Shown piece after piece: positions 54,731 through 61,527 of a DNA stretch of 64,000 nucleotides. Source of the DNA: Paenibacillus odorifer (GTDB lineage Bacteria; Bacillota; Bacilli; Paenibacillales; Paenibacillaceae). The translations under genes and the position numbers were made by a program. The notes under the pieces are model-generated. The model did not search any database. It had not been told where the DNA came from and was given only the letters and a program-made list of their open reading frames with translations. The stretch is from the NCBI RefSeq assembly GCF_000758725.1, contig NZ_CP009428.1, positions 3,472,001 to 3,536,000 of the forward strand, given 5' to 3'. Numbering within the stretch: position 1 is the first letter of the stretch; every line of letters begins with the position of its first letter.

Positions 54731-54756
54731 TGCTATAATCGTAATTATTACGATTA
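54731..54756 (+). promoter_or_regulatory. Zur box on an extended -10 promoter
   Basis: AATCGTAATTATTACGATT (54737-54755) is a perfect 9-1-9 palindrome; one more base pair on each side also matches. It contains the Bacillus Zur core TCGTAATNATTACGA exactly. It overlaps TGCTATAAT (54731-54739), an extended -10 hexamer. Zinc-loaded Zur should block transcription of the ABC-methyltransferase operon. Confidence 0.85.
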
Positions 54757-54776
54757 AGATCTTGGAGTTGAATGCC

Positions 54777-55706
54777 ATCAATCGATACTTGTTGCAACGC
54801 TTATTGCAGCTCATCCCCGTGCTGCTCGGTATCTCTTGCATTACCTTTGCGCTGATGCACTTAACGCCAGGTGATCCAGCGGAGATCATGCTGCGTGCTG
54901 ACGGCATTAAACCCACGCAGGAAGCTGTTGAGGTGACCAGACTTGCACTTGGTCTGGATGGTCCTGTACATAAGCAATATTTTCATTGGTTGAACCGGGT
55001 GTCCCATCTCGATTTAGGCCTATCTTACAGCAGCGGTCGTCCAGTATTCACAGAGCTAATGAGTCGCTTTCCGGCAACTATACTGCTCAGTGCCTGTTCC
55101 GTATTGTCCGCTATTCTTATTGCCTTGCCTATAGGAGTGGGATCTGCACTAAATCCGGGTAAATTGCTTGATCGACTGGGAAGAGTATGTGCACTGCTCA
55201 GTGTTTCAATGCCGGGATACTGGCTAAGTCTGCTCCTAATTTATTATGGTGCGGTGAAGTTTAAGCTATTTCCTGTGATGGGAATGGATGGGGTATCCAG
55301 TGTCATTCTACCTGCCCTCACACTAGGATTTGGAATGGCAGGAGTCTACATCCGCTTGATTCGTTCCAGTCTTCTAGACGTTTTGGGCAAGCGGTACATC
55401 ACAGCAGCTAGAGCTAAGGGGCTGCAGGAATGGAGAATAATCATTCGGCATGCACTTCGTAATGCGCTTCTTCCGAGTCTTACCCTCCTTGGAGTTAACA
55501 TAGCGGGGCTATTGGGCGGTTCCGTTATTGTTGAAACTATATTTTCTTGGCCGGGAATCGGTAAGTATGCCATTGAGGCGATTTTTGCGAAAGACTATAT
55601 TGTCATTCAGGGTTACGTATTATGGATGGCTGTTGTCGTTGTCCTGATTAACTTGACAGTGGATTTATTACATCTGCTGCTGGATCCGCGAATCAGGCTG
55701 CGGTGA
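54777..55706 (+). CDS. Opp/Nik-type ABC importer permease 1 (NikB-like)
   Basis: This is an inner-membrane permease of about 310 residues with six helices. The NikB/OppB opening is RYLLQRLLQLIPVLLGISCI, and LTPGDPAEIMLRADGI and the EAA loop AARAKGLQEWRIIIRHALRN follow. No ATG/GTG/TTG suits the GGAG at 54764-54767. ATC at 54777, nine bases on, gives exactly the family N-terminus; TTG at 54762 or 54768 are weaker choices. It is first gene of a seven-gene operon under a Zur box. Likely cargo is a zinc chelate (metallophore) or metal-binding peptide. Confidence 0.88.
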   Translation: MNRYLLQRLLQLIPVLLGISCITFALMHLTPGDPAEIMLRADGIKPTQEAVEVTRLALGLDGPVHKQYFHWLNRVSHLDLGLSYSSGRPVFTELMSRFPATILLSACSVLSAILIALPIGVGSALNPGKLLDRLGRVCALLSVSMPGYWLSLLLIYYGAVKFKLFPVMGMDGVSSVILPALTLGFGMAGVYIRLIRSSLLDVLGKRYITAARAKGLQEWRIIIRHALRNALLPSLTLLGVNIAGLLGGSVIVETIFSWPGIGKYAIEAIFAKDYIVIQGYVLWMAVVVVLINLTVDLLHLLLDPRIRLR

Positions 55707-55729
55707 CGATTTAGAAGGAGCGGATTGTC

Positions 55730-56575
55730 ATATTTCGTATTAGCTTATTTAAGAATAAGGGATCAAGGTTAGGAGCGGGCATAGTACTTTTGTTCATATG
55801 CGTTGGAGTCTTTGCCCCATGGCTTTCACCTTCCGATCCGCTGCAGATTCACATGGAACACAAACTGGCTATGCCTTCCTGGCAATACCCGCTTGGTACG
55901 GATCATCTGGGACGCTGTGTCTTATCCCGATTAATCTATGGGACCCGAACCACCCTGAATTATTCGTTTATGGTGTTGATCGTTGTTTTTGCGATTAGCA
56001 TCCCTGTTGGTTTACTGGCTGGTTACGCTGGCGGCAAGATCGATCATTTGATTATGCGGATCATAGATATATTGCTTGCCTTTCCCAGCTTAATCCTATC
56101 CCTTGCGATTACAGCCATGCTAGGTCCCAGTATGAAGAATCTGCTAATCGCATTTGCTGCTGTCTGGTGGACGGGGTATGCCAGAGTGATACGCAGCATG
56201 GTCCTTCAAATCAAGGAAAGTGAATATATTACAGCGGCCAAAGCGTCAGGCACTTCTCATTTACAAATTATTTTCAGGCATATTCTGCTGAACGCAGCCC
56301 GGCCTATTCTGGTTCTTGCTTCTATGGAAGTGGGTACGATTATGCTCTCCATTGCGGGTTTGTCCTTTCTGGGTTTGGGAGCTCAGCCGCCTACACCGGA
56401 ATGGGGAGTAATGCTGAACGACAGCCGTGCCTATATTCAAACGGAGCCACGGTTGATGCTATTTCCGGGAATGATGATCATGCTGGCGGTTCTGGGCTTT
56501 AATCTGTTGGGAGATGGCTTGCGACAACCAGAGCGTGTTTTCGATTCTGCAGTGAAGTGGGGGGCCAGAACATGA
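55730..56575 (+). CDS. Opp/Nik-type ABC importer permease 2 (NikC-like)
   Basis: This is the partner permease (about 280 residues). It has VFAPWLSPSDPLQ, YPLGTDHLGRCVLSRLIYGT and the EAA loop AAKASGTSHLQIIFRHILLN. The first conventional start, TTG 55790, would remove the first helix and lacks a ribosome site. The coding frame is open from 55715 with AGAAGGAG at 55713-55720; the only nearby candidates are ATT 55724 (3 bases away) and ATA 55730 (9 bases away). The expected N-terminus FRISLFKNKGSRLGAGIVLL follows. The start is therefore non-canonical or altered. The stop overlaps the next ATG (ATGA). Confidence 0.85.
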   Translation: MFRISLFKNKGSRLGAGIVLLFICVGVFAPWLSPSDPLQIHMEHKLAMPSWQYPLGTDHLGRCVLSRLIYGTRTTLNYSFMVLIVVFAISIPVGLLAGYAGGKIDHLIMRIIDILLAFPSLILSLAITAMLGPSMKNLLIAFAAVWWTGYARVIRSMVLQIKESEYITAAKASGTSHLQIIFRHILLNAARPILVLASMEVGTIMLSIAGLSFLGLGAQPPTPEWGVMLNDSRAYIQTEPRLMLFPGMMIMLAVLGFNLLGDGLRQPERVFDSAVKWGART

Positions 56576-57357
56576 TGGCAGAGTCTCCACTGCTGAAGGT
56601 CAGTCATTTACGCACCTGCTTTCACACAGGCAGTTATAAAGTTACGGCAGTTGATGATGTCAGTATCGAGGTGAAATCCCGGCAGATTGTCGCACTTGTA
56701 GGCGAGAGCGGCAGCGGTAAAAGTGTTACGGCAATGTCCATATTAGGATTATTAGATTCTCCAGGCTTAGTTGAGAGTGGAGAAATCTGGCTTAAGGGTA
56801 ACAATCTTCGTGAGTGCTCCAGCCGTCAGTTACGGAAGCTTCGGGGAACAGAAATGGCCGTAATCTTTCAAGATCCTATGAACGCGCTGAATCCGGTACT
56901 TACTATTGGCAGGCAGATCACGGAGACGATTAAACTGCATAAGCGGGTGTCGGGAAAAGAAGCAAGATTACTTGCCATGAAGCAGATGGAGCAAGCAGGG
57001 CTCAGCGATCCTGAATTACTTTTCAATAAATATCCTTTTCAAATTAGCGGTGGTATGTGTCAAAGAGTAATGATTGCCATCGCACTGGTATCCGGTGCAA
57101 AATTATTAATTGCAGATGAGCCTACAACGGCATTGGATGTAACCATTCAAGCCCAGATTCTTAAAGAGCTGGACCGAATCAGATGGACGAACAATGTCGG
57201 CATCCTATTAATTACCCATGATCTAGGCGTTGTTGCGGAGCTTGCAGATTATGTATATGTGATGAAGTCCGGGAAGATCGTGGAATCAGGCAATGTGTTT
57301 GAACTCTTTTCTAATCCCGTGCATCCCTATACTCAATACTTAATGGAGTGCAGATAA
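56572..57357 (+). CDS. Opp/Nik-type ABC importer ATPase 1 (NikD/OppD-like)
   Basis: This is an ATPase of about 261 residues. It has Walker A GESGSGKSVTA, Q-loop VIFQDPMNALNP, signature ISGGMCQRV and Walker B LLIADEPTTALD, and ends with the oligopeptide-type HPYTQYLME. ATG 56572 overlaps the previous TGA, so translation is coupled. The signature reads GGMCQ rather than the usual GGMRQ. It pairs with the next ATPase to power the importer. Confidence 0.92.
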   Translation: MMAESPLLKVSHLRTCFHTGSYKVTAVDDVSIEVKSRQIVALVGESGSGKSVTAMSILGLLDSPGLVESGEIWLKGNNLRECSSRQLRKLRGTEMAVIFQDPMNALNPVLTIGRQITETIKLHKRVSGKEARLLAMKQMEQAGLSDPELLFNKYPFQISGGMCQRVMIAIALVSGAKLLIADEPTTALDVTIQAQILKELDRIRWTNNVGILLITHDLGVVAELADYVYVMKSGKIVESGNVFELFSNPVHPYTQYLMECR

Positions 57358-57385
57358 CAACGGTAATATTACATTTTTCAGGGAC

Positions 57386-58243
57386 GTGGTGATCTTGAAG
57401 TTATTGGAAGCGGTAAGCCTGAACAAGAAATATGGGATGGAAAGGGGGTGGTTCACACGTAATGCCAGAAGTGTTCATGCCGTCAACAACCTGTCTCTCA
57501 GTCTGGAGAGCGGCGAAACCCTTGGATTAGTGGGGGAAAGTGGCTGTGGTAAGAGCACTTTGGCCAGACTTCTTCTGGGACTGGAGAAACCATCCTCCGG
57601 AAGAGTTATGTACCGGAACGAGGATTATACGGACTGGAGCTTCAGCGAAATGCGCATGATCCGCAGGAAGATGCAGATGGTGTTTCAGAACAGTCTGGCT
57701 TCATTTAATCCGTTGTTTACGGTAGAGCAGATTATCGGGGAGCCTCTTCGAAACTATGGAGAGAGGAAGGCTGGAGCCCGCAGGGTTACGGTAGCAGACA
57801 CACTTGAGCTTGTGGGACTTGAACGGCAGCATATTCACCGCTATCCGCATGAACTCAGCGGTGGACAGCAGCAAAGGGTCGGAATTGCACGAGCGATCAC
57901 CTTGCGGCCGGAGCTGATTATCTGTGATGAACCTTTCTCGAGTCTCGATGTCACCCTGCGAAAGCAAATGATGGATCTGCTGCAGGAGTTGAAGCATGAG
58001 CTGGGATTATCCTATGTATTCATTACACATGACTTGTCAGTTGTAAATCGTTTTTGCGACAGTGTGGCAGTGATGTGTCAAGGGGAAATAGTAGAGAAGC
58101 AATCAGGTGCAACTATGTTGCAGCAAGCAGACCACCCTTATACAAGAACATTACTCTCTTCGGTACCCGTGCAGGACCCCCGCTTAAGGAAGAAGAGACT
58201 GGGCACAGAGTGGCAACCCAGCCATTCCTATGATGTTAAGTAG
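57386..58243 (+). CDS. Opp/Nik-type ABC importer ATPase 2 (NikE/OppF-like)
   Basis: This is a 285-residue ATPase. It has Walker A GESGCGKSTLA, Q-loop MVFQNSLASFNP, signature LSGGQQQRV, Walker B LIICDEPFSSLD and HPYTRTLLSSVP near the end. The start is uncertain among GTG 57386, GTG 57389 and TTG 57395. The loop after the first strands (GWFTRNARSVHAVNN) is OppF-like. It completes a two-permease, two-ATPase importer. Confidence 0.92.
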   Translation: MVILKLLEAVSLNKKYGMERGWFTRNARSVHAVNNLSLSLESGETLGLVGESGCGKSTLARLLLGLEKPSSGRVMYRNEDYTDWSFSEMRMIRRKMQMVFQNSLASFNPLFTVEQIIGEPLRNYGERKAGARRVTVADTLELVGLERQHIHRYPHELSGGQQQRVGIARAITLRPELIICDEPFSSLDVTLRKQMMDLLQELKHELGLSYVFITHDLSVVNRFCDSVAVMCQGEIVEKQSGATMLQQADHPYTRTLLSSVPVQDPRLRKKRLGTEWQPSHSYDVK

Positions 58244-58261
58244 AGAAAGGATGTACCAAGA

Positions 58262-59935
58262 ATGAGAACGAACCTTAAGACAAAAAGCCTATTATCAAAA
58301 TCGTTATTCTTTATGCTTCTTGTGGTAGTTATGGTGATATCAGGTTGCGGTAACAGTAATAACAGCAATTCTACGGCTAGAGCCAATAATACCGCCAATA
58401 ATGAAGCTGCACAAGGATCTGAAGCTCAGGACAAGACAGTCACTGTTGCTATATCGTCCGATGCCGGTATAGACCGATTGGATGCCGGTGCCTATGATGG
58501 TTCGATGAATGTGCACGCGATGATATATGAGGGATTAGTGGAGTATAGTGAAAAAGGCGAAATACTGCCGTCGCTTGCGGAGTCTTGGGATATTTCAGAA
58601 GATGGGAAAGTATATACGTTCCATCTTCGCCATGACGTCAAATTCTCTGACGGTACGGAGTTTAATGCTGATGCGGTTAAATTCTCCTTCGAACGCTGGA
58701 TTAAGGATCCAGCCAATTCGTTAAATGTGGCGACTGCGATGCAATCCCTTGTTGTTGTGGACGAACATACGATTACAATGACATTCAACAAAGCGTATTA
58801 TCCCTTCTTAACCGAGTTATCCTTTGCAAGACCGGTCCGAATTATCAGCCCTTCCGCTGTGGAACCCACAGGAGATATTACGGGTAAATTCATCAAAGCG
58901 ATTGGAACTGGCGCATGGATGGCTGAGAGCTACAAAACAGATCAGGAAGCCGTACTCGTCAGAAATCCGAATTATTGGGGAGAAATGCCGAAGCTGTCGA
59001 AAATTATTTTAAAGGTAATCCCTGATCCACAGTCCAGAGTACTAGCGCTGCAAGCGGGAGATGTTGACATTGCCGGGGGACAAATGGGAAAGATTCCGGT
59101 CGAAAGCGTGCCAGTGATTGAAGCGGATTCTTCGCTGACCTTGCAAAAAGCACAAGGAACAAACTCTCATTTCATGATCTTTAACTACAAAACGCCCGCA
59201 CTTCAAGATCTGAATGTGCGCAAAGCTATCAATTTGGCAATTAATAAAAAAAGCATTGTCGATGATCTTATGGACGGTATCGGCAGTGAAGCCCAAGGTC
59301 TGTTCCCGTTGACGGTTCCTTATGTGACGGAATCCAATAATACCTGGTACGGCTTCGATCCGCTGGAAGCGAAGCAGCTGCTAGCAACTGCCGGTTACAC
59401 GGATTCGGACGGAGATGGAATGGTACAGAAGGACGGAGCGCAGCTTGAGCTTAATTTCGTGCTGCAGCAGGCTGAGTATCCCGAATGGAAGTCCATCAGT
59501 GAACTGGTTCAGTCTGAGTTAAAGGAGATTGGCATTAGAGTGAATCTTCAGGTTCTTGAACCGAATGCCTATTACGATGCCTTATGGACAAGCAAAGCCT
59601 ATGATCTAATTATGTACCGGACTTATGACGATGCCTATAATCCGCATGCATTCTTGCTCTCCTTATTTCATAAAACAGCTGATGCATCTGCTGTGGTATG
59701 GTCTGATCCTGCACTAGAATCTCAAATTGACACAGCAGTAGGAACAACCGATATTCAGGAACGTCAGACCGCATATGACTCCATTTTTTCCAAATTGTAT
59801 CAGGAGGCTATGTTTGCAGCTATTTATTTCCCTGACGATATCTTGGCAGTAAATAATAGAGTGACTGGATTTAAACCGGGGTACTCCACCTTTATGCCGG
59901 TCTTCTGGAATCTACTCGACATAGGAGAAAAATGA
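58262..59935 (+). CDS. Opp/Nik/Cnt-type substrate-binding lipoprotein
   Basis: This 557-residue class V (SBP_bac_5) binding protein has a signal peptide ending ISGC (lipidated Cys). GLVEYSEKGEILPSLAESWD, HDVKFSDGTEFNADAVKFSF and VRKAINLAINKKSIVDDLMD are standard for this family. NikA, CntA and OppA share it, and Zur control favours a zinc complex here over nickel or nutrition peptides. Its stop overlaps the next gene's ATG, so it is coupled to the methyltransferases. Confidence 0.92.
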   Translation: MRTNLKTKSLLSKSLFFMLLVVVMVISGCGNSNNSNSTARANNTANNEAAQGSEAQDKTVTVAISSDAGIDRLDAGAYDGSMNVHAMIYEGLVEYSEKGEILPSLAESWDISEDGKVYTFHLRHDVKFSDGTEFNADAVKFSFERWIKDPANSLNVATAMQSLVVVDEHTITMTFNKAYYPFLTELSFARPVRIISPSAVEPTGDITGKFIKAIGTGAWMAESYKTDQEAVLVRNPNYWGEMPKLSKIILKVIPDPQSRVLALQAGDVDIAGGQMGKIPVESVPVIEADSSLTLQKAQGTNSHFMIFNYKTPALQDLNVRKAINLAINKKSIVDDLMDGIGSEAQGLFPLTVPYVTESNNTWYGFDPLEAKQLLATAGYTDSDGDGMVQKDGAQLELNFVLQQAEYPEWKSISELVQSELKEIGIRVNLQVLEPNAYYDALWTSKAYDLIMYRTYDDAYNPHAFLLSLFHKTADASAVVWSDPALESQIDTAVGTTDIQERQTAYDSIFSKLYQEAMFAAIYFPDDILAVNNRVTGFKPGYSTFMPVFWNLLDIGEK

Positions 59936-60687
59936 TGTTAAAAGAGATTTCGAAATACTGGACATCAAGCTCGGAGAGTTATGACAAAGTCATACAGACT
60001 CAATTCCGCAGTAAAAAAACTATAAACCTCTGGAAACAACTGCTTATTAAAGGGTTGGGAACAACTCCCCAGCAAAAGGTGCTGGATGTGGGAACAGGAC
60101 CTGGCTTTTTCTCCATACTCTTATCACAGATGGGTCATCTGCCTACAGCGGTGGATGCCTCTCAGGGAATGATAGATAGAGCTTCACGAAATTTTGAGAG
60201 TTATGGATACAAAGTTCCAGCTTATGTCGCTGATGCTGCCGACTTGCATATGGAGCTAGAGAATAGCTTTGATGCAGTGGTCTGCAGGGATGTAGTATGG
60301 ACGCTGCCTGATCCACAGAGGGCTTATGCTGAATGGTACCGGATTCTAAAACCGGGCGGGACTCTGATTATTTTTGACGGCAACTATTTATATAAAGAGA
60401 GCAAGACTGTATTCCGTAAACTTTGGTATGCTTTGTCCTGGACGCTGATTCTGCTCACAGAACAAAGAATCCGCCAGCGAAGCAGTCAAGATAAAAGCCT
60501 GCTAAGCGAGTTGCCATTTGTTAATGTATTACGGCCTGAAGCTGACGAGACAGCGCTGAAACAGGCCGGGTTCCGAACCATAGATGTTCACCGAAACTTT
60601 ATCCCTGCCCGTGCGATGCCGCTAGATTATTTGAAATACGGTTACCAGAATGTAAACCGGTTCATGATACTTGCCAAGAAGGAGTGA
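59932..60687 (+). CDS. Class I SAM-dependent methyltransferase (first of two paralogues)
   Basis: This is a 251-residue enzyme. It has motif I VLDVGTGPGFFSILLSQMGH, AVDASQGMIDRAS, VCRDVVWTLPDPQRAYAEWY and RILKPGGTLIIFDGNYLY. It begins inside the stop of the binding protein (ATGATG at 59932). The next gene is a clear paralogue. Methyltransferases of this type recur beside Nik/Opp-like metal importers; they may methylate a metallophore or its precursor. The target is unproven. Confidence 0.9.
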   Translation: MMLKEISKYWTSSSESYDKVIQTQFRSKKTINLWKQLLIKGLGTTPQQKVLDVGTGPGFFSILLSQMGHLPTAVDASQGMIDRASRNFESYGYKVPAYVADAADLHMELENSFDAVVCRDVVWTLPDPQRAYAEWYRILKPGGTLIIFDGNYLYKESKTVFRKLWYALSWTLILLTEQRIRQRSSQDKSLLSELPFVNVLRPEADETALKQAGFRTIDVHRNFIPARAMPLDYLKYGYQNVNRFMILAKKE

Positions 60688-60694
60688 ATGATAA

Positions 60695-61444
60695 ATGGGT
60701 ATACAACAAGAGGTGGAAATGTATTGGGAAGGCGAAGCTGAGCTGTACAGCGAAGGCATTCAGAAGGAACTGAACGGATTCCAGCGGGAGGCCTGGCTGA
60801 AGCTTATCCTCGCTAACGCACCACAGAAGGAAAGATTGCAGGTTCTAGATATTGGCTGCGGGCCTGGCTTCTTCTCTGTGATTCTCTCAAGTGCCGGGCA
60901 TCTGGTTACTGCGATCGATTGTACCGACAATATGCTGGAAGAAGCACGTTCCCACTCCAGTCGGGAAGGTGTCACCGTTACTTTCCGCAAGATGGATTCG
61001 CACAAGCTTGACTTTGCTGCGGAAAATTTCGATCTGATCGTGTGCCGCAATGTTACCTGGAGCCTTACCGATCCGCAGTCAGCTTACAAAGAGTGGAAAA
61101 GAGTACTTAAGCCTGGGGGACGGCTACTGGTTTTTGATGCCAACTGGAATCGCCATCTCTGGGACGAAGAGATGCAGCAAAAGCGAGTAGAGGATCAGAA
61201 AGTCTATGTAGATAAGGGCTTTGGTGAGCTCCCGCATCATAAGGACATAGAGGAGACAGACCGTCTGAGTCTTGTATTGCCACTGACCAGAGAGTGGCGT
61301 CCCGAATGGGATATACGGACTCTCAAGGAAGAAGGATTCACCACTATTTTTGCTGAAGAGAATTTGAACGCCAAAGTACTGGATGAGAAACAGCAAGTCT
61401 TAAACCGGTCAACACCGATGTTCATGATTTGTGCTGAAAAATAA
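60695..61444 (+). CDS. Class I SAM-dependent methyltransferase (second paralogue)
   Basis: This 249-residue enzyme is collinear with the preceding one: VLDIGCGPGFFSVILSSAGH, AIDCTDNMLEEARSHS, VCRNVTWSLTDPQSAYKEWK and RVLKPGGRLLVFDANWNRHL. AAGGAGTGA precedes the ATG, 7 bases after the first methyltransferase stop. It is the last gene of the Zur operon, before a strong terminator. The two enzymes differ most in their C-terminal third, the usual acceptor-binding part, so they may act on different substrates. Confidence 0.9.
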   Translation: MGIQQEVEMYWEGEAELYSEGIQKELNGFQREAWLKLILANAPQKERLQVLDIGCGPGFFSVILSSAGHLVTAIDCTDNMLEEARSHSSREGVTVTFRKMDSHKLDFAAENFDLIVCRNVTWSLTDPQSAYKEWKRVLKPGGRLLVFDANWNRHLWDEEMQQKRVEDQKVYVDKGFGELPHHKDIEETDRLSLVLPLTREWRPEWDIRTLKEEGFTTIFAEENLNAKVLDEKQQVLNRSTPMFMICAEK

Positions 61445-61485: not shown

Positions 61486-61527
61486 TAAAAAGCAGCGATC
61501 CTCTAAATGAGAGGCGCTGCTTTTTGA
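61486..61527 (+). terminator. Terminator of the Zur operon
   Basis: AAAAGCAGCG, CCTCT pair with AGAGG, CGCTGCTTTTT (small internal bulge). Confidence 0.88.

Follow-up and report, generated by a model that had tools for sequence, protein, structure and literature searches.

Here, we found that a predicted Nik-class metal-chelate importer of Paenibacillaceae has a SAM-dependent methyltransferase as its obligate partner, and that the two also occur together in clostridia, acetogens, spirochaetes, Proteus and Methanosarcina. In the stretch analysed from the soil bacterium Paenibacillus odorifer (the window, 64,000 nucleotides, bases 3472001-3536000 of the genome), the importer and two such methyltransferases, MT1 and MT2, are encoded in one seven-gene operon, for which comparison of promoter sequences gives good support for control by Zur. 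The operon most likely encodes an importer of chelated zinc (or of zinc, nickel and cobalt) with methyltransferases that act on the chelator, either freeing the metal or making the chelator. The specific reading that we favour, at a probability of roughly 0.45, is a Zur-repressed importer of a chelated divalent metal in which MT1 and MT2 would methylate the chelator after import and thereby free the metal. What we infer here is that the cargo is zinc, that it enters as a chelate, that the chelator accepts the methyl group and that methylation serves release.

The genes run in the order permease 1, permease 2, ATPase 1, ATPase 2, substrate-binding lipoprotein, MT1 and MT2, with the following features:

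54731 to 54739, + strand: extended -10 promoter element TGCTATAAT, overlapped by the predicted Zur operator; its TG.TATAAT core is invariant in 10 related promoters
54736 to 54756, + strand: predicted Zur operator TAATCGTAATTATTACGATTA, a perfect 21-bp palindrome
54762 to 55706, + strand: permease 1, NikB/Opp2B-like (Opp2B model 421.7 bits, cut-off 350)
55724 to 56575, + strand: permease 2, NikC/Opp2C-like (Opp2C model 331.3, cut-off 300)
56572 to 57357, + strand: ATPase 1, NikD/OppD-like, ABC_tran (NikD model 298.6, cut-off 318.7)
57386 to 58243, + strand: ATPase 2, NikE/OppF-like, ABC_tran (NikE model 281.8, cut-off 332.55)
58262 to 59935, + strand: substrate-binding lipoprotein, SBP_bac_5, NikA/CntA class, lipobox Cys29
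59932 to 60687, + strand: MT1, class I SAM-dependent methyltransferase (Methyltransf_11 5e-22)
60695 to 61444, + strand: MT2, class I SAM-dependent methyltransferase (Methyltransf_11 1e-25; AF2 pLDDT 94.4)
61490 to 61525, + strand: intrinsic terminator at the operon end, a hairpin of -21.8 kcal/mol (z -5.3) followed by a T-run

All seven genes of the unit named in the original prediction were found, and the coupling of its reading frames is seen in two ATGA overlaps, one between permease 2 and ATPase 1 and one between the binding protein and MT1. The start of permease 2 needs correction: the mechanical open reading frame begins at 55790, the first ATG, GTG or TTG codon, and the conserved N-terminus, which contains none of these codons, lies upstream. 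An ATT at 55724 aligns with the ATG of an ortholog (L078), and other orthologs carry ATG there or nearby, so that we are dealing either with a rare ATT start or with a sequence error; judged from this alignment, translation probably starts at the rare ATT codon 55724. Gene finders restricted to ATG, GTG and TTG would shorten the protein by 22 codons (55724-55790). Permease 1 starts with TTG, and the related promoters that we compared have ATG, GTG or TTG at this place.

The partnership rests on a survey of 250 Paenibacillaceae genomes, in which the methyltransferase family was present in 31 and the binding protein (scored at E <= 1e-110) in 29. All 29 genomes that encode the binding protein encode the methyltransferase too, and conversely 29 of the 31 methyltransferase genomes have the binding protein; of the two that do not, one has a truncated methyltransferase (G053) and the other a methyltransferase next to transporter genes that do not make up a full set (G216). 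Two layouts occur. Type I follows the order B-C-D-F-SBP-MT in one direction, and in type II the methyltransferase gene points away from SBP-B-C-D-F, and the Zur box lies in the intervening region. In the 31 family loci, the units contain neither an exporter nor a scaffold enzyme, and beyond close relatives the loci have no neighbouring gene family in common. A literature search, with subscription papers and preprints outside its scope, returned no description of the importer-methyltransferase pairing.

The perfect Zur palindrome that had been placed on the -10 is indeed there: TCGTAATTATTACGA matches at 54739-54753 with 0 mismatches, its sole exact match in the window, and overlaps the extended -10 element. 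The Zur box TCGTAATNATTACGA is likewise exact in the operon promoter and sits on the -10, and a slightly looser pattern, TCGTAATNNTTACGA, has five exact matches in the 6.8-Mb single-contig genome, namely the operon promoter, three sites at a znuCBA/CobW(ZigA) cluster and one site 5' of an AAA ATPase gene. In Bacillus, Znu genes and CobW genes of the YciC type belong to the standard set of Zur targets (PMC6336718). Among the 29 related Paenibacillaceae loci, 28 are preceded by a box with at most 2 mismatches, against 0.14 expected by chance. Split by layout, the box was found within 400 bp ahead of 18 of the 19 type I units and before all 10 type II units, whereas shuffles gave chance expectations of 0.11 and 0.03, respectively. 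The lone miss, L103, has its box, with a single mismatch, some 400 bp upstream. Across ten aligned promoters of related loci, the palindrome is conserved together with the TG.TATAAT core while the flanks have diverged. This phylogenetic footprint, together with the occurrence of the same box at other zinc genes of P. odorifer, lends good support to the earlier proposal of Zur control.

The exact box at C1:1640511 of the same genome (L035 8512-8526) precedes a gene for a 268-aa AAA ATPase with CDC48-like similarity (L035 8697-9503), which may be an unexpected Zur target or may owe its box to chance. The genome contains three ZnuA-class systems, of which L076 (znuCBA) has three Zur boxes and L075 two imperfect ones, and none was seen before L077. 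A genome scan with 3 mismatches gave a background level among the matches listed, and the scan was repeated allowing 1 mismatch. The gammaproteobacterial Zur palindrome GTTATNNTATAAC showed no enrichment over the control genome-wide. The seven-gene operon shares the operator and the expected zinc response with Zur-regulated ZnuABC; ZnuABC, however, belongs to a different ABC class, uses a ZnuA-type binding protein, takes up free zinc and has no methyltransferases.

Is the pair a peculiarity of Paenibacillaceae? A scan of 84,980 species genomes yielded 456 candidate stretches, and the best 80 of these 456, which we analysed, include Proteus, Actinobacillus, Orbus, Clostridium, Desulfosporosinus, Acetobacterium, Sporomusa, Treponema and Methanosarcina. 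The methyltransferase lies at most 3 kb from Opp/Nik components in 52 of 64 loci outside Paenibacillus, and the order B-C-D-F-SBP-MT is common to several anaerobes (L162, L165, L172, L178, L216). At seven or eight loci, two methyltransferases are joined in one long ORF (L170, L173, L175, L176, L177, L196, L211 and L223; both halves were matched in seven of these, and L223 has one clear match). Outside Paenibacillaceae we found no convincing match to Zur, Fur, PerR or NikR boxes, and at five anaerobe loci no cobalamin or other riboswitch was linked to the unit. MATE or ABC-exporter-type genes adjoin the methyltransferase in some anaerobes. ABC membrane-ATPase pairs and MATE, FecB/FecCD-type, FmdE and AstE-type genes lie nearby at L158, L173, L200, L211, L169, L184 and L159, hinting at larger metal-ligand clusters. 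The locus had been treated as a local oddity; it is instead one branch of a widespread transporter-methyltransferase family that is mostly not under Zur and that includes a reported nickel importer, Nik of P. mirabilis. Obligate co-occurrence and conservation in such distant taxa much strengthen the original suggestion that the methyltransferases act with the importer.

MT1 and MT2 form separate ancient clades of one class I family. The class I SAM fold was confirmed by Pfam, by AF2 and by motif I (D-x-G-x-G-P-G) with an acidic motif II, and the residues D52, G54, G56, P57 and D75 are invariant in the family, as are W11, W34, the D-G-G-P-G motif, R118, W122, D148, R202 and D206. The nearest named NCBIfam model for both is that of the corrinoid protein-associated methyltransferase CpaM (NF043040), but with 68 bits (MT1) and 76.5 bits (MT2) against a cut-off of 180 they are not members. 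A fold search with MT2 returned only generic small-molecule methyltransferases (TM about 0.6); it did not single out a methyl acceptor, as S-methyltransferases and phosphoethanolamine N-methyltransferases score alike.

We speculate that the system would work as follows. When the zinc level of the cell falls, Zur would dissociate from its operator at the -10, which would allow joint transcription of all seven genes. The lipoprotein would then capture zinc, possibly also nickel or cobalt, on a small carboxylate-bearing chelator, and the two permeases and two ATPases would import the metal-chelator complex. In the cytoplasm, MT1 and MT2, translated in concert with the binding protein, would methylate the chelator, which in the favoured reading would weaken metal binding, so that the metal is freed or the chelator is kept from binding it again. 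Action on an imported chelator is favoured because the Paenibacillaceae units lack an exporter or scaffold enzyme and because MT1 is coupled to the binding protein. Counting against this best explanation are the generic fold matches of MT2, a ligand site in the binding protein (that of NikA His416) at which His is present in only 14 of 26 family members, the exporter-type neighbours in some anaerobes, and Zur and NikR sites that were not found outside Paenibacillaceae.

Alternatively, the methyltransferases could convert a common metabolite into a zincophore that is secreted and whose zinc complex the importer would retrieve, which would be an undescribed pathway. Zur control would fit such a route, as would an importer of the class that serves opine zincophores, and methyltransferase genes are reported in some opine zincophore clusters (PMC7438024). 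The twin methyltransferases, fused at seven or eight anaerobe loci, suggest successive steps, and the MATE and ABC-exporter-type neighbours in anaerobes would fit production and export of a chelator. Against it, the Paenibacillaceae units come with neither exporter nor scaffold enzyme, and the known opine enzymes CntL and CntM are absent. We regard a self-made zincophore as unlikely, though not as far-fetched, and a role after import fits the data at least as well.

The comparison with the Cnt systems of staphylopine and bacillopaline (importer CntABCDF, synthesis CntKLM, export CntE), known for zinc complexes, bears directly on this point. Both have an Opp/Nik-class importer with a binding lipoprotein. 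Unlike the Cnt systems, however, the window has methyltransferases in place of CntL and CntM, and its binding protein fails the CntA model (NF047575; 293.3 bits, cut-off 800), on which a Paenibacillaceae CntA located beside CntL and CntM scores 847 as a positive control. The absence of CntL- and CntM-type genes, originally noted near the operon, holds genome-wide: a search for an opine dehydrogenase and for CntL, of the nicotianamine-synthase-like class, found neither, with no PF10100 (CntM) match in the P. odorifer genome and only a 17.7-bit chance match to a Paenibacillaceae CntL query. Thus, this is not a staphylopine-type system, and membership in Cnt was rejected. PF10100 is present in 71 of the 250 Paenibacillaceae genomes, in 5 of 31 methyltransferase carriers as compared with 66 of 219 non-carriers, i.e. 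without positive association. In one genome with CntM (G201), the binding-protein gene (L081 7834-9465) has an in-frame TAG and possibly decayed after the gain of an opine system. We considered and rejected the idea that the methyltransferases transfer aminobutyryl groups as CntL does, as hhalign with a Paenibacillaceae CntL aligned only 72 SAM-fold columns at a probability of 55%, a generic fold similarity, and no nicotianamine synthase or CntL aminobutyryl transferase is among the 50 best fold matches of MT2.

Which metal is carried? The profiles and the predicted fold agree with the earlier assignment to the Nik/Cnt class of metal-chelate importers. Both permeases pass the 'nickel' Opp2BC models (NF045470, 421.7 over 350; NF045474, 331.3 over 300), and the binding protein comes just under the cut-off of the NikA model TIGR02294 (388.3 bits, cut-off 393). 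Its best PDB matches by sequence are NikA, and its AF2 model (pLDDT 84) matches in fold NikA, then CntA and then peptide binders. Lipobox Cys29 is invariant, and so are, in 26 family members, Arg190 and Arg193 at the site of NikA Arg137, Tyr452-Arg453 and Tyr455. The Tyr402 site of NikA is kept as Tyr in the window protein and in 16 of the 26 overall. The window protein also has His at the His416 site, where the family divides into 14 members with His, 10 with Tyr and 2 with Arg. NikA Arg97 and Trp100 are missing and the Trp398 site is Tyr; we take these NikA positions (Arg137, Tyr402, His416, Arg97, Trp100 and Trp398) to be ligand-site residues. Model scores, fold matches and pocket residues together lead us to predict a metal-chelate-type binder with a pocket of its own, by model neither NikA nor CntA. 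The five components resemble E. coli-type NikABCDE (30% identity in the binding protein); the window system differs, apart from the pocket, in having a Zur operator in place of that of NikR, a binding-protein gene after the ATPases and added methyltransferase genes.

These similarities would also fit an importer of nickel or cobalt complexes, placed under Zur because these metals replace zinc or share its ligands. Most relatives were found in anaerobes, organisms that often rely on nickel and cobalt enzymes. In P. mirabilis ATCC 29906 (L208 9965-15780, contig NZ_GG668583), a gene of the same methyltransferase family lies directly before nikA in a full Nik set. This contig carries NikC (289 aa) and NikD, and Ynt lies on NZ_GG668579 (PMC5701452 Table 8); the L208 NikC gene has the length listed for NikC of the contig. 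A review (PMC11026637), with reference to Brauer 2020, states that in the absence of YntA the nickel for urease is brought in by Nik. The methyltransferase gene of this nik operon is uncharacterised. The Proteus unit differs from that of the window, however, in its single methyltransferase, its gene order and a binding protein that passes the NikA model; no Zur box was found there, and a conserved promoter palindrome was not evident by eye. Since we would expect a different regulator to govern a nickel system, the zinc operator kept in 28 of 29 loci makes nickel or cobalt as the main cargo improbable in Paenibacillaceae. An oligopeptide importer that scavenges peptide-bound zinc, with methyltransferases in an unrelated role, would agree with membership in the Opp/Dpp/Nik superfamily, but NikA outscores the peptide-binding models and structures by a wide margin and the methyltransferase partnership is obligate and ancient, so that we give it very little weight.

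In summary, Nik/Cnt-class metal-chelate importers have usually been studied as transport alone or together with opine synthesis. The methyltransferase described here accompanies the transporter without exception in the family genomes surveyed, is conserved from Paenibacillaceae to Methanosarcina and lies beside the P. mirabilis nik genes; this suggests that metal uptake can include a chemical step which is absent from the literature searched, and the version with the Zur box offers a clear and testable setting for it. We tentatively propose, as a possibility to be taken seriously, that bacteria and archaea share a widespread and undescribed way of using metal chelates, in which Nik-class importers are obligately paired with one or two, sometimes fused, SAM methyltransferases that would modify the metal ligand for release or synthesis, serving zinc under Zur in Paenibacillaceae and perhaps nickel or other metals elsewhere.
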